Below are positions 14,082 through 23,740 of a stretch of DNA of 25,085 nucleotides, piece by piece. The notes below the pieces were generated by a model, which saw nothing but the letters and a program-made list of their open reading frames with translations, did not search any database and had not been told where the DNA came from. The stretch's first letter is position 1, and every line of letters starts with the position of its first letter. The stretch spans positions 1-25,085 of IMG/VR virus record IMGVR_UViG_3300034102_001820; one strand, written 5' to 3'. A program made the position numbers and the translations under genes. This stretch comes from a virus.

Positions 14082-14090
14082 TATAAATAT
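14082..14090 (-). promoter_or_regulatory. ATATTTATA box immediately before the BppU-like gene
   Basis: The coding-strand sequence ATATTTATAAGATATG has the box ending 4 nt before the start codon and overlapping the first base of the upstream stop. At this distance it would give a leaderless mRNA, or it may act in translation instead. Weakest of the exact copies as a promoter. Confidence 0.3.
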
Positions 14091-15307
14091 TATATAGATG
14101 CAATTGCTCTAACCGCAGTTCCAAGCCATTCAAGATTATAATCGTTATAAACAGTCCAAGTAATTAGGTCTGTCGATGTTATCAACCATTTACCTGGAGA
14201 AATCCCACTATTATCAAAGGCCCCAACATACCACTTATCACCGTTCCAATGAACAGTAAATGCGGTACTAACTAAGATAGAGTTAGCACCTGTAGATGTT
14301 GACCAATTAAACCCATCAGTTGAATATGCTACTTTATTTGTACCGGCACCAACCGCAACAAAATAAACACCATTATAATCGATTCCATAAATATTGTTAT
14401 CAAATATTACATTATCATTTGTCGAACCAGTCCAAGTAATACCATCATAAGAAACCGCAATTTGTTTTCCACCTTGACCACCAACAGCAACAAATCGGTC
14501 ACCACCATAAACAATCGAATTAGTTACTGAGGATAAAAAACTATTATCTTTAGTTACTGCGGAAAATGTTACACCATTATCGGTGGAAACGTATAAATTG
14601 GAGATGGAGTTTCCCCCACCAACAACCCAAGTACCTAAATTATTTCCCGCGACGCAAAATAAACCACTACTTAATGGAATATTGCCGGTAACTCCGGTCC
14701 AAGAAATGCCGTCTGTTGACTTAGCGATTTTTCCGGAACCACCACCAATACCTACCGCCATAAAAATACCATTGGAATAGGTTATTCCGGCAACAAGTCC
14801 TTCAGTAAATATGGTATTTGCTGATGACGATGATGACCATGAACTACCATTTGTAGAGTAGATAAGTTTATTTAAACTATTTGTGTTACTTCCAACAACG
14901 TAAATTAACCCGTTAGTTGACACCGACCTAGCATAAGGACTGGTAATTAATGAATCAGCAGAAGATGAATTTGTAAAATAATTATTTCCACTATTTTGAT
15001 ATAAAACTTGGGAGCCAGTCCCACCAACAATTACCATACTTGGTGGCATTTCAGGAGATGGTGTGGGTGTAATTGTTGGAGTTAAGGTTGGGGTAGGTGT
15101 TTGAGTAGAACTCAAAGTTGGTGTTGGTGTGGGTGTTTGTGACGAAGTTAATGTCGGAGTTGGAGTAGGTGTCTCAGTTAAAGTTGGTGTTTGAGTTGTG
15201 GTATTGGTTGGCGTTAAAGTTTGGGTAGGAGTATTTGTTGGCGTACTAGATGACGTTGGTGTTGGTGTCGGTAAATTCCCTAAAACTCTCGAATAAACTG
15301 ATATCAT
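14090..15307 (-). CDS. Fibre/adhesin with Thr/Pro-rich stalk and BNR-type beta-propeller
   Basis: The protein has 405 residues. A short N-terminus ([12 protein letters not shown]) is followed at about 13-86 by a Thr/Pro/Ser tract ([16 protein letters not shown] and so on). The remainder (about 90-405) is a run of strands carrying Asp-box/BNR-like units: [48 protein letters not shown] and TSTDLITWT, each followed by 'Y..G.(F/R)(V/M)AVG'. Such propellers occur in sialidase-like and carbohydrate-binding adhesins; no sialidase catalytic residues (RIP motif, Tyr/Glu pair) were recognised, so binding rather than cleavage is favoured. The Thr/Pro stalk is the same kind as in the 16336-18582 gene. 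It probably projects the propeller to the host surface. Confidence 0.75.
15050..15271 (-). repeat. Thr/Pro linker-coding repeat tract in the propeller fibre gene
   Basis: Degenerate repeats of short units encode TPTPTLT/TPTQTLT. On the plus strand they read as variations of gttggtgtgggtgttt. Similar sequence occurs at three places in the 16336-18582 gene. Confidence 0.85.
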
Positions 15308-15320
15308 ATTTTTTATTCAT

Positions 15321-16334
15321 TTATAATGTAACTTCAAAAGTTGCGGAATAACCTTTACTTCCTACCTCAGGACCTCCACCCGAATAATTAATATTCAATG
15401 TGTTACCTGATGTTAATGTTAATGATGTTGGGAACGTATAACTAAAATTCCTACTTCCTCCGGTATGTACCCATGATACCGATGATGTAACGGTATTTGA
15501 TGAATTCCTCATCTCAAGTAAAAATGTTGTATCTGTTGATGATGTTACATCACCATATGAGCCATTTACACTTGTAATTGTTTTGTTGTTGTAATCTGAT
15601 GGAATAACAACATACGCATCTCTCATTGAATTATTTACAACAAAATCTGATATTGATATTGAAGCAGGAACTGAGTTTATCGCAATATAATCCGATGATG
15701 AGTTTGTGTAACCCGTAATTGTTATTGTTCCACCGGTGTTATTATAAAGTGTTGTTGTTCCATTTGAATGTGTTCCTCCCGTTATTTGAACATCGGAACC
15801 ATAAAAAATTCTCCATTTTGCATTTTCACGAGTAGTTCCACTCACATTTTCTATGGTAGAACCCGTCCAAGCAGAAATTAATGCTGCTCCCGATGCTTTT
15901 TCAACACCACCAACTCTATTTGAAACTGTATATGAGATATCAGTGGAAGTTATACAGTTATCGGTAACCGCATTATCCCATAATGTTTCATAATTGTCAA
16001 TTTGAAATTGATACGTTGTTTGGTTTTCATGTACATAAACCAACATTCCAAGTTTTCTTCTACCACTTGAGATACCATCAGAATTTAATGTAATTCTATT
16101 CGTAATTGTTGATACCGGACTTTTATAAAAAGTAACGGGAATTGTATTTCCACTATTTGATATGTTACCCGTTACCCCAAAGGTTGAAAAATCTAAATCC
16201 GATAATCTCCACACTTCTTGATAACCACCAACAAGTGATGTACTAAACGTAGAACCGTAAGTACTTGTTAATCCAACACCACTTGGTGCGGATACCTCAA
16301 CAGATGATATTGGGTTTTTATAAGTTAATGCCAT
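15321..16334 (-). CDS. Beta-rich structural protein of the fibre operon, unknown family
   Basis: The protein has 337 residues, rich in Ser, Thr, Asn and Gly, with predicted beta strands throughout, one cysteine and no signal peptide or transmembrane helix. I recognise no family. The N-terminus, MALTYKNPISSVEVSAPSGV, is followed by a first part (about 30-170) with aromatic strands (LGMLVYVHENQTTYQFQID). A middle segment (about 180-225, GGTHSNGTTTLYNNTGGTIT) may be a small beta-helix-like stretch. The C-terminal part ends SGGGPEVGSKGYSATFEVTL. It lies between two Thr/Pro-linker fibre genes, with 1 nt from the upstream stop and 13 nt to the downstream start, so the same transcript is likely. A fibre subunit, fibre cap or receptor-binding role is inferred from context only. 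Confidence 0.6.
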   Translation of the reverse strand: MALTYKNPISSVEVSAPSGVGLTSTYGSTFSTSLVGGYQEVWRLSDLDFSTFGVTGNISNSGNTIPVTFYKSPVSTITNRITLNSDGISSGRRKLGMLVYVHENQTTYQFQIDNYETLWDNAVTDNCITSTDISYTVSNRVGGVEKASGAALISAWTGSTIENVSGTTRENAKWRIFYGSDVQITGGTHSNGTTTLYNNTGGTITITGYTNSSSDYIAINSVPASISISDFVVNNSMRDAYVVIPSDYNNKTITSVNGSYGDVTSSTDTTFLLEMRNSSNTVTSSVSWVHTGGSRNFSYTFPTSLTLTSGNTLNINYSGGGPEVGSKGYSATFEVTL

Positions 16335-16335
16335 T

Positions 16336-18582
16336 TTATGATAATGTTGAACCTCTAAAGTAATTATTTGTTGAATCTAATACTCCTGCACTACCAACTG
16401 AGAATCCGGTGACATTAGTGAAGACCCTATAAGTACCATTCCAATAATTTGGACCACTATATACCACATCGATAACTCTTAATCCACTATCAGTATTTGT
16501 GTTTACCAACGATGTTGGTTGATTATTGAAATTCACACCAATTTGAGTATAAACCTGTGTTGAATTATTTAATAAACTATGTGGAACAAATATTGAATAA
16601 TATGCATTTCCACGAACACTGTTTGCTGGTATTTCAACTGTTTCAAATTTATATGATTCTTTTGCATTACCATATAAATCAGTTCCTCCCGAAGATTGTG
16701 GTACATTAGATTCTATAACACCATTTGTGTTATTTGTGGTTCCCGTAACGTGACCCATCCAATCCATGTAATATTCCAAATCGTTTGCGTTTATATCGAC
16801 CAATCCTGAAGTTTGGAATCCAAACCAAGTTGCTCCGGTATTTGCCACCATGTAACTTCCGATATCTGTTGAGATGGAACCCGTAAATTGAGCATCATCC
16901 CCACTTTCAATAAACACAAGAGCCATAGGTGTACTACCTGACGGTGTTGTTGATGTTGGTGTACTTGTGTTTGTTAACGTAGGTGTTGGACTATTAGTTG
17001 GAGTACTTGTCAACGTTTGAGTTGGTGTATTTGTACTTGTTGGTGTACTTGTTAAAGTTTGAGTCGGAGTGCTTGTTAAAGTTTGAGTTGGGGTTGGTGT
17101 TGGTGAATCATAAACAACCAATTCCACAACGTTACCATTACCATAATTCCAAGTGTACGTTCCTGAGGTAACACCTAATGTCGATAAAGAGGTATTTGTT
17201 AATGTAACATTACCACTTAGTTGTTCACCTGAGTAACCTATAGGTACAAAAATGTTTCTTTGATTAGGTCCAAATCCAAATCTGTCACCTGTGTTATCAA
17301 AACTATCTGCAAAATCAAAATCTACACCTGAACCAATAGATGTTGGTCCTGTCATAAGTAAGTCACGATATTGTTGACCATTCCCATTTAAAGAAGGTCC
17401 AATCGCTAAAACGGACGGTGTTCCACTTGCTCTAACACCGGGGAAAACCCCTGTTGATGCCGATATTAACGTAAATGATGTTAAGTTAACTGTACCCTCA
17501 CCCGTTAACACAACATCACTACCCACTTCTTGCATTGTAAAATACAAAGATGCGGTTGTTATTGTCTGTGTTGGGGTATTTGTTGGTGTATTTGTTGAAG
17601 TGCTCGTTAATGTTAATGTTGGAGTACTTGTTAAAGTTTGAGTTGGTGTACTTGTTAAAGTTTGAGTTGGTGTACTTGTTAAAGTTTGAGTTGGTGTACT
17701 TGTCAACGTTTGTGTTGGGGTACTGGTTGTTGTGCTTGTTAAAGTAGGAGTTGGCGTCGGGGTACTCGTTAAAGTTGGTGTAGGTGCTGCAGTGCTCGTA
17801 CTTGTTAATGTTGGTGTTGGAGTTGGTGTAGGACAATCATCAACAGAAGCAATGATACCATTAACAACATATAATAAATTAAATGTATCTAATTTTATAT
17901 AATAACCGTTTGTTCCCACATAATATGTGGTTAAGGTTGCATCATTATGAAGTTTATCACCAACCTCAGGTACATAATTTGAAAAATATGCATTGGTACC
18001 TGCAGTAGAATAACATGTTGTCAATTGTAAACATGACAACGAGTTACATGCCAATGTTTGGTTATTTACAAAGCTACCTTGTGTGTTTGTTGAAAAACTT
18101 AAATTGGCAAAATATGCTTGACCTCCCGAAGAACTACTGGTATTTGTCAATGTGGGTGTTGGAGTACTCGTTAATGTCGATGTTGGAGTACTTGTTGGTG
18201 TAGATGTCTCGGTTAACGTAGGTGTGCTTGTTAACGTTGGAGTTGGGGTACTTGTTAAAGTAATCTCAATTGTTGCTGTTGGTGTAGATGTCTCGGTTAA
18301 CGTAGGTGTGCTTGTTAACGTTGGAGTTGGGGTACTTGTTAAAGTAATCTCAATTGTTGCTGTTGGTGTAGGTGTGGAGGTTGTTTCCACAACTTCAATT
18401 TCATACATATAATCGTATAGTGGGACATAAATCTCATATGTACCATAAACATAATCAGCAATATAGTTAAACGGTATTGTTTTTGAACCAATACTTACCG
18501 TACCCCCTGTTAAAGGTAGAAACGTTACCGTGGCCGTTTTCCCACTTAAATTATCACTTGTTATTCTTACTCCAGATGGCAT
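16336..18582 (-). CDS. Long modular fibre/adhesin with three Thr/Pro-rich linkers
   Basis: The protein has 748 residues, built of four globular modules joined by Thr/Pro tracts at about 68-150, 250-343 and 493-551. Module 1 (1-67) has aromatic strands (PFNYIADYVYGTYEIYVPLY) and may anchor to the virion. Module 2 (152-249) contains five cysteines. Module 3 (344-492), from SLYFTMQEVGSDVVLTGEGT to NVTLTNTSLSTLGVTSGTYT, resembles a secreted beta-sandwich domain common in PEP-CTERM proteins. Module 4 (552-748) is unidentified. The linkers come from tandem DNA repeats, including a perfect 84-bp duplication. It is probably a receptor-binding or surface-searching fibre. Its start at 18582 follows the LamG-like gene by 19 nt, and its stop is 1 nt from the next ATG. 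Confidence 0.7.
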   Translation of the reverse strand: MPSGVRITSDNLSGKTATVTFLPLTGGTVSIGSKTIPFNYIADYVYGTYEIYVPLYDYMYEIEVVETTSTPTPTATIEITLTSTPTPTLTSTPTLTETSTPTATIEITLTSTPTPTLTSTPTLTETSTPTSTPTSTLTSTPTPTLTNTSSSSGGQAYFANLSFSTNTQGSFVNNQTLACNSLSCLQLTTCYSTAGTNAYFSNYVPEVGDKLHNDATLTTYYVGTNGYYIKLDTFNLLYVVNGIIASVDDCPTPTPTPTLTSTSTAAPTPTLTSTPTPTPTLTSTTTSTPTQTLTSTPTQTLTSTPTQTLTSTPTQTLTSTPTLTLTSTSTNTPTNTPTQTITTASLYFTMQEVGSDVVLTGEGTVNLTSFTLISASTGVFPGVRASGTPSVLAIGPSLNGNGQQYRDLLMTGPTSIGSGVDFDFADSFDNTGDRFGFGPNQRNIFVPIGYSGEQLSGNVTLTNTSLSTLGVTSGTYTWNYGNGNVVELVVYDSPTPTPTQTLTSTPTQTLTSTPTSTNTPTQTLTSTPTNSPTPTLTNTSTPTSTTPSGSTPMALVFIESGDDAQFTGSISTDIGSYMVANTGATWFGFQTSGLVDINANDLEYYMDWMGHVTGTTNNTNGVIESNVPQSSGGTDLYGNAKESYKFETVEIPANSVRGNAYYSIFVPHSLLNNSTQVYTQIGVNFNNQPTSLVNTNTDSGLRVIDVVYSGPNYWNGTYRVFTNVTGFSVGSAGVLDSTNNYFRGSTLS
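16930..17106 (-). repeat. Thr/Pro linker repeat tract 3 (residues 493-551)
   Basis: Diverged copies of a 24-bp unit encode TPTQTLTS, with interspersed TSTNTPTQ and PTPTLTNT variants. Confidence 0.85.
17554..17835 (-). repeat. Thr/Pro linker repeat tract 2 with perfect 24-bp tandem units
   Basis: Three perfect copies of a 24-bp unit (plus-strand phase starting gtacttgttaaag) lie at 17624-17647, 17648-17671 and 17672-17695, with diverged copies on both sides. Each encodes eight residues, TPTQTLTS. Confidence 0.9.
18133..18381 (-). repeat. Thr/Pro linker repeat tract 1 with a perfect 84-bp tandem duplication
   Basis: Positions 18193-18276 and 18277-18360 are identical base for base, followed by the first 11 bases of a third copy. 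Each copy encodes 28 residues containing [20 protein letters not shown]. Identity without any silent change points to a recent duplication. Confidence 0.92.
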
Positions 18583-20113: not shown

Positions 20114-20863
20114 ATGGATAAATATGTAAAAAATATTATCGAAGAGACATTCTCCTCCAAAAAACAACAAAGATTCTTCTATGCAAAGGCATCAGATAAG
20201 TCTTTGTCAAAAAAAGAAAGGAATAAATGGTCTAAATGGGCAAAGGAATATTCTTCAGATACTGATTTTGAAAAAATTCCAGAAAAGGCGGAATCCGAAA
20301 TTGAAGAGGTGGTTGACGAAAAAGGTAATGTTTCAAGAAAAAAAGTTCCCGTAAGTAAGGATAGTAAAGGTATTACTAAGAAAACAACTGACCAGATTGT
20401 TAAAACTGGTGCGGGTGCTATGGGTATTCATGGTGTACACGGTACACATACTTCCCTAAGATATTGGGCGGAAGCAGATATGAGTAAAGCACTCGGATAC
20501 GACAGTACTTTAGGTCAAGATGCTGATATGGAAGATGCGGAAAAATATTTTGAAAAAGAATTAGGAATGGGAGACAGAGAAGCTGAAGAAAGACTCTCAT
20601 CTTACGGTTATGATGAAAATCTTGAGGGTGATAAAGTAAGATTGATAGAAAACCCTAAAAAATACATTCAAGATTATGTTGAAAGTGTTCTTTCTAAAAA
20701 ATCACAATCGGATGATTTGGTAAAAAAAGACCAAACAGAAGATATTGAAAAGAACCTCAATCCAATCATCAAAAAACAATTATCCGCACTTAAAAATACA
20801 TTAGTAAAGAATAATCTTTCAGTAAAAGACATTCTTAAACTTTTAGATAAAGACGATGAATAA
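20114..20863 (+). CDS. Hypothetical phage protein with capsid-targeting-like N-terminus
   Basis: The protein has 249 residues, highly charged, mostly helical, with no cysteine or membrane segment. I do not recognise a named function. The first residues, MDKYVKNIIEETF, align position by position with the T4 capsid-targeting sequence MKTYQEFIAEA at Y4, I8 and E10. Next is SKKQQRFFYAKASDKSLSKK, with a following KKERNKWSKWAKEYS helix, which resembles the 'SK.QQ+.f' start of small DUF3008-type phage proteins. A Gly/His segment lies around 97-113 (KTGAGAMGIHGVHGTHTSLR), an acidic helix around 130-150, and a Lys-rich C-terminal helix. It begins the plus-strand cluster, and its stop overlaps the next ATG by 8 nt, so the two are translationally coupled. 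Confidence 0.6.
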   Translation: MDKYVKNIIEETFSSKKQQRFFYAKASDKSLSKKERNKWSKWAKEYSSDTDFEKIPEKAESEIEEVVDEKGNVSRKKVPVSKDSKGITKKTTDQIVKTGAGAMGIHGVHGTHTSLRYWAEADMSKALGYDSTLGQDADMEDAEKYFEKELGMGDREAEERLSSYGYDENLEGDKVRLIENPKKYIQDYVESVLSKKSQSDDLVKKDQTEDIEKNLNPIIKKQLSALKNTLVKNNLSVKDILKLLDKDDE

Positions 20864-21353
20864 AGATTTAAAAGGTAGAGTATTCGATGTTCCACAGGAC
20901 ATTCTTGATAAGATAAACCACACAATTACGGGTTTAAATGGTCAAAATGTGCGTGGTATTCAAAGAGCAAAAAAACTTCTACAAGATAAATCTGTAAAAT
21001 ACGGTCAACTAAAGAGAATCATTCATGACATCCAAAATATGGATAAGGTGAACGAAAGAACCAAATTTGACCTTTGTGGTGGTGAACTTATGGAAAAATG
21101 GGCAATGACTCATTTACAGGGTGAACGTGATTTAATTAAAGGAAATAAACAATCAAGAAAAAATGCAGATGAGATGTCAGGTTTGACGGGTGAAAGAAAA
21201 AACAGTCACTTAAAATCTCACAGTAAAAGATTTAGTTTTAAAATCCCAACCAATTTGGTCAAAAGTAATTCACATAAAACAAGTATATCACCGATTACTT
21301 CTTTAGGGTTATTTGAAGAAGTTGAAAAAATAAAGAAATTAATATCATACTAA
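20856..21353 (+). CDS. Hypothetical helical phage protein
   Basis: The protein has 165 residues, basic and helical. The N-terminal part (RVFDVPQDILDKINHTITGL, then GIQRAKKLLQDKSVKYGQLK and RIIHDIQNMD) looks like three helices. The central DLCGGELMEKWAMTHLQGER is followed by a Ser/Lys/His-rich stretch and the C-terminal tail TSLGLFEEVEKIKKLISY. That tail resembles the end of the WYL-like protein two genes downstream (PLQESISRIKTLIFF). The start codon overlaps the preceding gene by 8 nt, and its stop is 1 nt before the next ATG, so it belongs to one operon with both. No enzymatic motif or nucleic-acid-binding fold is recognised. A virion or prohead-core role is inferred only from company. Confidence 0.6.
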   Translation: MNKDLKGRVFDVPQDILDKINHTITGLNGQNVRGIQRAKKLLQDKSVKYGQLKRIIHDIQNMDKVNERTKFDLCGGELMEKWAMTHLQGERDLIKGNKQSRKNADEMSGLTGERKNSHLKSHSKRFSFKIPTNLVKSNSHKTSISPITSLGLFEEVEKIKKLISY

Positions 21354-21354
21354 T

Positions 21355-22302
21355 ATGCCAACTCAATTAGAAATAATAGCGGAGCAACAAAGACAACAAC
21401 ATTTGGCAAGAAACGAATACAACTACGGTGATTTGTATAGTTCAAATAATACAGGAGCATTATCCGACGGAGATGAAAGAGGTAAAGGAGAATTAAATGG
21501 TAATGTTGGTTCTAAAACAGATATTGTAGAGAGAAAATCATTGGTGGCTAAAAATATCTATAACCCAAACTTTATCTACGATTCTAATAACCCCAACGCG
21601 TTATCTAACGGTGACGAAAAAGGTAAAGGTGAAAATGCATCATCAATTGGTAGTGTTACGGATATTAACGAAAGAAAATCACTTTTATCAAAAAATATCT
21701 ACAATGAAAATTTTGGTTATGGTGTAGTTAACCCAAATGCGGTATCTGACGGTGACGAAAAAGGTAAAGGTGAAAGTAATTCAGGAACTATTGGTTCCGT
21801 TACCGACATCAATGAAAGAAACGCATCATATGCAAGAAACATATATGGACCATCTTTAGGTTATGACTCAAATCACCCCAACGCATTATCTAATGGTGAT
21901 GAAAAAGGTAAGGGTGAAAACGGAACATCGATAGGTGGTTTAACCGATATCAATGAGAGAACTTCATTATTGGCAAAAAACATATATAACACGGGTTTTG
22001 AGTATGATTCCAATAACCCAAATGCATTATCTAATGGTGATGAAAAGGGTAAGGGTGAAGATTCGGGTAATATTGGAGGTTTAACCGACATCAAGACAAG
22101 AATTACCTTATTGGCAAAGAATACTTATAATGGTGGTTTTGAATATTCATCAGTAAACCCTAACGCCATTTCTGATGGTGATGAAAAAGGTCGTGGTGAA
22201 AATGCCGGCGGTAGTGTTGGTACGAAAACCGACATTAATGAAAGAGTTGTATTAAAGGCGAAAAACAAATACGGCGATACTAAACAATATCCCGATTTTT
22301 AA
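21355..22302 (+). CDS. Repeat protein of six ~47-residue units, unknown function
   Basis: The protein has 315 residues. After a Gln-rich start (MPTQLEIIAEQQRQQHLARN) it is almost entirely six tandem units starting at about residues 20, 67, 114, 162, 209 and 256, plus a short seventh. The consensus is NIYN..F.YDSNNPNALSNG, then DEKGKGE, then ...IG..TDINER..LLAK. The most constant part is (D/N)GDEKGKGE followed by TDI. No known repeat family is recognised; the DGDEKGKGE loop loosely recalls acidic calcium loops but has Lys where an EF-hand has a ligand. No signal or membrane segment is seen. Silent differences among units show an old amplification, unlike the fibre linkers. It is linked in an operon (1-nt gaps or overlaps) to both neighbours. 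It could be a virion scaffold, a repeating linker or an internal protein. Confidence 0.75.
   Translation: MPTQLEIIAEQQRQQHLARNEYNYGDLYSSNNTGALSDGDERGKGELNGNVGSKTDIVERKSLVAKNIYNPNFIYDSNNPNALSNGDEKGKGENASSIGSVTDINERKSLLSKNIYNENFGYGVVNPNAVSDGDEKGKGESNSGTIGSVTDINERNASYARNIYGPSLGYDSNHPNALSNGDEKGKGENGTSIGGLTDINERTSLLAKNIYNTGFEYDSNNPNALSNGDEKGKGEDSGNIGGLTDIKTRITLLAKNTYNGGFEYSSVNPNAISDGDEKGRGENAGGSVGTKTDINERVVLKAKNKYGDTKQYPDF
21412..22263 (+). repeat. Six tandem 141-144-bp coding repeats
   Basis: Units begin at about 21412, 21553, 21694, 21838, 21979 and 22120, with a partial seventh from 22264. Copies 2, 4 and 5 are most alike (YDSN.PNALSNGDEKGKGE); copy 1 is most diverged. Confidence 0.85.
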
Positions 22303-23144
22303 TGATAAATTTTGAAAAAATATTATCTAAATTAATAACTGAAGCACCCGTTGGTAGTAAAAGGGAAAGATTGTTACGTGCAATAAAAAGTCGTAACCCT
22401 GTTTCATTTTATTATAATGGACCAAGAGAAGAAGTATTGGCAGGAAGAAGAATTAAGTCCGAGTTAGTTGCTATGGGTGTTACCAAAAAGGGTAATCTTG
22501 TGGTAAGAGGTTGGGTACAACCACCTTCAGTATCTAAAAAAGGATTTGGTGACCATGGATGGAGATTATTCATCTTAGATAGAATGTCAGGTATTCAGAT
22601 TTATGAGGACGAAACGTTTGATGCAAAAAGACCGGGTTTAAATCAAGATGGTGACAAGAGTTTAGATGTTGTTTATGCAACAAGTGATTGGGGGGTTATT
22701 CAAAAACCTGAAAAACCAAAACCACAACCAACTCCAACAAGAGAACCAGAACCACAACCAACTCAACCAAAAGTGGAACCTGAATTACCTCAACCTAAAC
22801 CTGAGGATAAACCTTCAGCAACACCACAACCCGAAGTTAATTTTGCGACACAAGTTTATGACGAACTTAAAACTAAGGTTCAGGACGTTGATGGTCAAAA
22901 ACAACTTTCACCAAATGATTTCTCAGTTGCATTGGATTCTTTACGTAAAAGAAAGATTTCTGATTGGTCAAACAGACAAAGAGAGATTGGTAAAAACACA
23001 ACTCCCGGTGAAGGTACACGTAGAAGGATTGAAAAAGATGCTGAGATTGAGTTGTATAATGAATTAAAGAAAGATAATGTGGTGGTTACACAAACCCCGC
23101 TTCAAGAATCGATAAGTAGAATTAAAACTTTAATATTCTTCTAA
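22302..23144 (+). CDS. WYL-like-domain protein with capsid-targeting-like N-terminus
   Basis: The protein has 280 residues in three parts. The N-terminus MINFEKILSKLITEAPVGSK resembles T4 internal-protein capsid-targeting peptides (MKTYQEFIAEA followed by RVG); it contains ITE/A at residues 12-15, the T4 prohead protease consensus (I/L)-x-E before A/G. Residues about 22-106 fit a WYL-type beta-barrel: AIKSRNPVSFYYNG, EVLAGRRIKSELVAMGVTKK, GNLVVRGW, then HGWRLFILDRMSGIQIYEDE. A Pro-rich linker (about 135-178) leads to a helical C-terminal part ending LQESISRIKTLIFF. WYL domains bind nucleic acid or nucleotides in bacterial regulators and CRISPR accessory proteins. No helix-turn-helix is present. 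The start overlaps the preceding stop by 1 nt. It may be packaged in the head and injected. Confidence 0.6.
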   Translation: MINFEKILSKLITEAPVGSKRERLLRAIKSRNPVSFYYNGPREEVLAGRRIKSELVAMGVTKKGNLVVRGWVQPPSVSKKGFGDHGWRLFILDRMSGIQIYEDETFDAKRPGLNQDGDKSLDVVYATSDWGVIQKPEKPKPQPTPTREPEPQPTQPKVEPELPQPKPEDKPSATPQPEVNFATQVYDELKTKVQDVDGQKQLSPNDFSVALDSLRKRKISDWSNRQREIGKNTTPGEGTRRRIEKDAEIELYNELKKDNVVVTQTPLQESISRIKTLIFF

Positions 23145-23173: not shown

Positions 23174-23740
23174 ATGTCAGGAAAAGGAGTAATATCAGAA
23201 AATGGATTAATGCAAAGATTGGTCCAAGCAAAAAAAGTAATGAATAAGGTTGATGGTGGTAATTATGAAAGGGGTCATGTGAATGAAACAGTTCTTAGGT
23301 CAAATCCTGAAGAATTAAATGTTTCTGAGGTTAATGCACCAACACAAAAACCCGCAAACTATACACCAAATAAAGTTATGGAATCAAAACTACCTGATGC
23401 AATTAAAAGAGCAATGATTGAAAATCCGATACCACAAATTAGTTTAAGTGATTCTCTTGACATGGATTTTGTTAAGAATACCAAAAAATTAATGGAAGCT
23501 GAGGGCGTTGCCACAAAATCAAAACAAACCTCATCCCCAAGGTCAATTCCACAATCGTCCAATATTGACATGAATGAGATTGCGATTATCATCGAGAATA
23601 CCGTTAGAAAGGTTTTAGATGAAAAATTAAATCAAATCTTAACTGCTCAACAAACATTATCAATTAATGAAAACTTGGTCCTTAAAGTAGGTGACTCCGT
23701 GTTTAAAGGTAAAATTACCGGAGTAAATAAATCCAAGTAA
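23174..23740 (+). CDS. Hypothetical phage protein with C-terminal coiled coil
   Basis: The protein has 188 residues, and I do not recognise its family. The first 70 residues are polar and probably disordered. KLPDAIKRAMIENPIPQISL (about 72-91) looks like a docking motif, and DFVKNTKKLMEAEG (98-111) contains LME before A, a possible T4-type prohead protease site. A Ser/Pro-rich spacer leads to an amphipathic helix, NEIAIIIENTVRKVLDEKLN (134-153), likely to oligomerise. The end LVLKVGDSVFKGKITGVNKS is a short beta unit. The arrangement (disorder, helix, small C-terminal domain) would fit a scaffold, prohead-core or assembly protein, which is inference only. It has its own upstream ATATTTATA box and no Shine-Dalgarno. 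It is followed by a T-rich 50-nt gap before the glycosyltransferase. Confidence 0.6.
   Translation: MSGKGVISENGLMQRLVQAKKVMNKVDGGNYERGHVNETVLRSNPEELNVSEVNAPTQKPANYTPNKVMESKLPDAIKRAMIENPIPQISLSDSLDMDFVKNTKKLMEAEGVATKSKQTSSPRSIPQSSNIDMNEIAIIIENTVRKVLDEKLNQILTAQQTLSINENLVLKVGDSVFKGKITGVNKSK

Follow-up and report, generated by a model that had tools for sequence, protein, structure and literature searches.

A WYL-like protein with putative prohead-protease sites at both ends, a probable head protein of uncultured jumbo phages

Introduction

Does a phage load a WYL-like protein into its head? The question is raised by a 25,085-base virus fragment (the whole stretch of DNA analyzed here, hereafter the window), which encodes a protein beginning MINFEKILSKLITEAPVGSK, with a short leader ahead of a WYL-like domain. 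The WYL fold binds nucleic acid and occurs in bacterial regulators of DNA damage and defense. We came across no description of a WYL protein in virions, or of an injected one, in the literature searched. We addressed the question by comparing the gene with its relatives in viral contigs and with the head proteins of phage T4.

Results and Discussion

The gene, its surroundings and its relatives

The features of the locus are collected in Table 1. The start codon of the WYL gene shares sequence with the stop codon of the gene before it (TAATG), an arrangement of a type common among the relatives. A head-tail adaptor was recognized near it in the window by its PHROGs match (phrog_211), and around it lie genes which, from reading their sequences, we take to be those for tail tube, sheath and DNA polymerase. 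On the minus strand, at 14090-18582, two proteins carry long Thr-Pro-rich tracts, perhaps tail-fiber or adhesin linkers.

Table 1. Features of the WYL locus (window coordinates unless a contig is named; a slash within a sequence marks a predicted cut)
Feature	Coordinates	Strand	Evidence or remark
Gene of the putative doubly tagged WYL head protein	22302..23144	+	280 aa; ORF call, 156 relatives in viral contigs
N-terminal leader, residues 1-14 (MINFEKILSKLITE)	22302..22343	+	predicted cleavage after E14
WYL/Sm-like domain, residues 18-130	22353..22691	+	Pfam, AlphaFold, Foldseek, charge
Pro/Glu/Lys-rich linker, residues 134-180	22701..22841	+	low confidence in model
Helical domain, residues 181-262	22842..23087	+	alignment and model
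C-terminal tail, residues 267-280 (LQE/SISRIKTLIFF)	23100..23141	+	predicted cleavage after E269; kept in 57/57 homologs
Neighbor gene, 249 aa, leader MDKYVKNIIEE/TF	20114..20863	+	phi-x-E site in 55/56 homologs
Neighbor gene, 165 aa, tail LFEEVEKIKKLISY	20856..21353	+	synteny, tail comparison
Neighbor gene of ~46-residue repeats	21355..22302	+	repeats GDEKGKGE...TDINERKSLLAKNIYN; stop overlaps WYL start (TAATG)
Downstream neighbor, 188 aa, without C-terminal tail	23174..23740	+	conserved in 75/80 loci
Examples of the K-[FIY]-x-[IL]-T-E N-terminus in contig G001	9980-11110, 20614-21000, 25685-26143, 30859-32178, 33554-34498, 35251-36303		

Sixteen relatives emerged from an initial scan and 156 from a profile scan. 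We retrieved 80 of these loci, which lie on T4-like jumbo-phage contigs and provided the 57 distinct full-length homologs compared below. One relative with an ortholog, the near-complete 310,691-base contig G001, was examined over its whole length and 293 of its proteins were counted, and 119 proteins were counted in a second relative, G003. A further contig, G004, contains many frameshifts, most likely through assembly error, with the WYL gene and the scaffold among its broken genes (L017 8001-8635 and others), so that C-terminal patterns on it are uninformative. A search of 50,697 phage records returned no match beyond two distant relatives in LR756502 and LR745206, metagenomic phages of 640 kb, and none in an isolate; both distant proteins are without leader and without tail. 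We found no relative in the cellular genomes searched, and the PHROGs search gave no usable family for the protein.

The N-terminal leader

The window protein carries the motif ITE14/A15 at the end of a 14-residue leader, for which AlphaFold predicts a helix at residues 4-13 and then drops to low confidence over residues 14-17. By itself this lone motif proves nothing, because short phi-x-E motifs show no enrichment at N-termini genome-wide in G001 (97 observed versus 89.7 +/- 7.2 in shuffled sequences). It is conservation over the homologs that makes the site significant. The (I/L)-x-E motif was present at residues 10-14 in 57/57 distinct full-length homologs (shuffle mean 29.5, maximum 39), a count that does not amount to 57 independent events since the homologs share ancestry, and in 0/54 sequences of a neighboring glycosyltransferase used as control. 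When 42 distinct leaders were aligned on the glutamate, P1 was E in all 42 and P3 was L (27) or I (15) only; our motif search also permitted V, M and F at P3, none of which occurred. P2 was free, and P1' was mostly Q or A. Seven different codons encode the P3 leucine or isoleucine across the leaders, and the leader length shifts by indels (10, 12, 13 or 14 residues) with the site retained.

This P1/P3 pattern equals the specificity published for the T4 prohead protease gp21, L/I-X-E (PMC9026906). In T4 leaders, residues 4 and 7 direct targeting and residues 8 and 10 direct cutting (PMC9026906), and the leader of one clade of homologs, MNNFKKILLE/M, overlays that of T4 IPII/IPIII, MKTYQEFIAE/A, at the residues that matter in T4. 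The protease and capsid genes were read in the relatives; the 25-kb window fragment stops short of them. In G001 a T4-type major head protein (phrog_138, 1e-65), a gp21-family protease (phrog_207, 6.5e-40), portal and terminase form one block, and relatives of the protease were found in 510 contigs. The presumed maturation site of the capsid protein, YLINE/AA, is kept in 26/27 relatives. Because it sits at the place of T4 gp23 FLTE/AE, the protease of this clade is plausibly L/I-x-E-specific as well. The earlier note on this DNA had claimed a capsid-targeting-like leader trimmed after E14, and the comparison strongly supports it, through the homolog alignment with an (I/L)-x-E site in 57/57, the T4 rule and the presence in relatives of a gp21-type protease with a matching capsid site.

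A wider leader PSSM gave an excess of N-terminal matches in each of G001, G003 and W01 (in G001, 14 matches versus 2.4 expected), although the WYL family itself is included for G001 and G003. The individual matching proteins are unproven candidates.

A second site and a shared C-terminal tail

Near the C-terminus of the window protein we noticed a second site, LQE269/S, which is absent from the earlier note; the model places a tail helix at residues 266-279. All 57 of the 57 homologs end in L-x-E (V-x-E in one) followed by I-x-R-I-K-x-L-[ILM]-[FY]. The helical domain that precedes this end is missing in many homologs of 220-250 aa, and the site and tail are kept even in these.

A tail of the same kind was found in 53/53 distinct homologs of the 20856-21353 product, and in relatives it also ends two proteins of the head core. 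Their gp22-like scaffold, identified by its place beside the protease and its acidic composition (PHROGs gave no name), ends in L[SA]E/[SA]KAYENPQFKRMKDLMSKIK, i.e. L[SA]E/[SA]KAYENPQF[KR]RMKDLM, across dozens of contigs. The prohead protease ends in RMKKLM..LD.FLSK, again in dozens of contigs; its tail is present in most genomes, with the G001 version (NKMINLM) missing the strict C-terminal motif. Whole-proteome counts of the C-terminal pattern [RK][MIF][KRV]x[LM][MIL] are descriptive, because the pattern was framed after some tails had been seen: it occurs in 3/293 proteins of G001 (the gene 20856 product, the WYL protein and the scaffold) versus 0.39 expected, and in 4/119 of G003 (the same three families and the protease) versus 0.25 expected, and no further protein of either set carries it. 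Having its tail in common with scaffold, gene 20856 product and protease places the WYL protein in the prohead core. The shared C-terminal helix is apparently a new tag for head loading; alternatively, it may stay uncut and serve simply as a stable contact between proteins. Taken together, the comparisons strongly suggest head localization and cutting at both ends.

The first of the six syntenic genes, at 20114-20863, has a T4-like leader, M[DN]xFIKQVIEE across its family, and its product is a candidate second head-core protein. The six-gene order is kept in 74-78 of 80 loci, with the repeat protein upstream of the WYL gene varying from 125 to 731 aa between relatives. Between G001 and G003 the WYL protein shows 47% identity, the scaffold 57%, the capsid protein 73% and the protease 85%. 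Judged by these comparisons, the WYL gene is a conserved clade gene that drifts faster than the shell proteins, and not a patchy hypervariable effector.

The same observations bring up the possibility that the protein is a prohead-core assembly factor, like T4 gp67/gp68, acting in head size or scaffold nucleation, with the barrel as a structural or DNA-organizing module and no useful delivery to the host. Its synteny and presence throughout the clade, the tail common to scaffold and protease, and a sequence drift like that of the scaffold would all suit such a role. However, T4 gp22, gp67 and gp68 are cut into fragments (PMC9026906), whereas both sites here are at the very termini and leave a folded, conserved domain intact; moreover, WYL domains bind ligands, and the basic patch that is conserved here (see below) fits nucleic acid. 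We regard a purely structural role as possible but rather unlikely.

Other tag-like proteins

Leader-like sequences were also seen elsewhere. In the first 324 kb of the 642-kb LR756502 genome (L063-L079), some 70 of the 386 ORFs with a length of 90 aa or more open with MK[HY]L-K-x-Y-[KN]-[IL]-[FY]-E-[SN] (e.g. MKHLKTYKIFES), a shared leader that resembles the T4 capsid-targeting sequence and ends in phi-x-E/S, which points to a common destination for a very large group of proteins. A different N-terminus, K-[FIY]-x-[IL]-T-E-[SN]-x-x-[LKM], recurs on many otherwise unrelated proteins of G001 (L020-L021; examples in Table 1). Tag-like sequences at both ends were observed in G001 170978-172432 and G003 20266-21543, and in G001 29042-30859 (e.g. 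MRLEDLFESLLLE/A ... KLFE/NVKNIKNLL). No Pfam domain was found in the G001 copies of these two-ended proteins, and a Pfam scan of ten further G001 proteins with a leader or a tail gave no recognizable effector.

The WYL-like domain

AlphaFold models built with 40 and 25 sequences fold residues 18-100 into a WYL/Sm barrel, with a helix at 20-30, five strands over 34-100 and an extra strand at 121-127. In a Foldseek search of the PDB the nine best matches were all WYL proteins (PafBC/DriD; probability 1.00, TM 0.49-0.62), the best being PafBC (6sj9; E 5.5e-4, TM 0.62) and ssDNA-bound DriD (7tzv; TM 0.61), and Sm and Hfq folds ranked lower. At the sequence level the Pfam WYL family (PF13280) gives the window protein a sub-threshold score of 13.8 bits (cut-off 21.8, E = 0.061) and matches 28/40 homologs at E<0.1, with a best E of 7e-4; sequence-profile searches of the PDB found no WYL structure, and the fold search alone did so. 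That the protein contains a WYL-like domain, as had been claimed from the DNA, is therefore supported by the fold and weakly by Pfam. The same WYL-like fold was seen in two unannotated phage proteins in BFVD, A0A8S5VTW8 (Ackermannviridae sp.; TM 0.75) and G3MA37 (Bacillus phage G gp296; TM 0.50).

Strand 3 reads NLVVRGWV, without a W-Y-L triplet, and we found neither HTH nor WCX in the window protein, whose leader directly precedes the WYL helix and whose Pro-rich linker follows the domain. Since triplet, HTH and WCX are all missing, this is not a standard WYL regulator. In the homolog alignment R50, W87 and R88 show no variation and R94 almost none, giving the conserved stretch W87-R88-x-F90-x3-R94. 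The net charge is +11 over residues 15-100, and the WYL domain is charged +8 to +18 in 57/57 homologs. PafB binds ssDNA via the WYL arginines R181, R204, R208, R211 and R214 together with Y196 (PMC11804915).

These features bear on a narrower version of the injected-cargo reading, in which the protein binds ssDNA, or acts as a DNA-damage decoy, at ends or gaps of the incoming genome and fends off host DNA-damage regulators or nucleases. In PafBC and DriD, which have the nearest folds, the WYL domain is the part that binds ssDNA, and the conserved tryptophan and arginines and the domain pI of 11.2 would fit such binding; on the other side, the W-Y-L triplet is absent and R211, one of the two PafB arginines in the loop between strands 4 and 5, appears from the motif register to be replaced by a variable residue. 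We put this version forward tentatively.

Proposed pathway and function

We consider it probable that the protein belongs to the prohead core, carries two removable tags, is cut at both ends by a gp21-type protease and is packaged, its WYL barrel being cargo that is probably ejected and may bind nucleotides or single-stranded nucleic acid. Two helices, one at the N-terminus and the I-x-R-I-K-x-L helix at the C-terminus, would attach the precursor to the scaffold core as it grows; scaffold and protease of this core carry the same C-terminal helix. The activated gp21-type protease would then cut after (I/L)-x-E at E14 and E269, and a mature protein of 28.9 kDa would stay in the head with the DNA. 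In the window version this would comprise the basic WYL/Sm barrel, the Pro/Glu-rich linker and the helical domain. It would probably leave the head with the genome, and its barrel would bind single-stranded nucleic acid or nucleotides. Docking, cleavage and packaging are modeled on T4, and we infer them with more confidence than ligand and ejection; ejection into the host with the genome is plausible by analogy to the T4 internal proteins and Alt. A bolder proposal is that the clade recruits scaffold, protease and cargo alike to the head core by a cleavable C-terminal helix, and that the doubly tagged WYL protein is an injected sensor that binds ssDNA or nucleotides at the first moment of infection; we hold this to be possible, if somewhat doubtful.

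The earlier note had further suggested that the protein interferes with a host defense system. An injected anti-defense effector might sequester cyclic or oligonucleotide signals in its barrel or block a host WYL regulator. WYL domains are reported to regulate or sense signals in phage-defense systems (PMC9122601), and T4 IPI, once injected, inhibits the GmrSD restriction enzyme (PMC5694885). The WYL gene, however, is single-copy, holds its place in the gene order and occurs throughout the clade instead of varying, and no defense-type gene was seen adjoining it in the loci examined. Because the synteny is universal, a fast-evolving effector becomes less likely, and we judge the anti-defense role unlikely. 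Least convincing, indeed very improbable, is an ordinary cytoplasmic phage regulator with end helices for dimerization and coincidental (I/L)xE sites: WYL domains are usually transcription regulators and single phi-x-E motifs are common, but this protein has no HTH domain, 57/57 homologs combine a strict N-terminal L/I-x-E with free P2 and a C-terminal L-x-E, and the tail is common only to head-core proteins and the gene 20856 product.

The two-tag reading would extend the T4 head-loading rule to a widespread uncultured jumbo-phage clade and points to a WYL protein as probable virion cargo. With a packaging code that can be read, other head and injected proteins in these phages could be predicted from sequence only.

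Comparison with known systems

The domain shares with PafBC and DriD (6sj9, 7tzv) the helix and five-stranded Sm-like barrel and a basic conserved W-R-x-F-x-x-x-R stretch, but differs from them in having no HTH, WCX or W-Y-L triplet and in a sequence below the Pfam cut-off. At its C-terminus the protein has the same R-[MI]-K-x-L-[MI] helix as the gp22-type scaffold and gp21-type protease of the relatives, whereas T4 gp21 and gp22 themselves have C-termini of their own without the tail motif. With T4 IPII/IPIII it has in common a 10-14-residue amphipathic leader, aromatic or hydrophobic residues at positions 4 and 7/8, an (I/L)-x-E site before A or Q and, in relatives, a gp21-type protease; it differs in its WYL cargo, which is unrelated to the internal proteins, in its second, C-terminal site and tail, and in being conserved and syntenic. 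The internal proteins of T4 vary and can be dispensed with (PMC9026906, PMC5694885), and variability of that kind between relatives is not seen for the WYL protein, given the gene order kept in nearly all loci. Both ends of Alt, the injected ADP-ribosyltransferase of T4, are trimmed, with the cuts falling after ITE-6 and LTE-619 (PMC5694885). Alt loses 63 C-terminal residues versus 11 here, its ADP-ribosyltransferase domain is absent from the window protein and we claim no homology, but with L/I-x-E propeptides at both ends and an identical N-terminal ITE it provides a direct precedent for a doubly tagged cargo.
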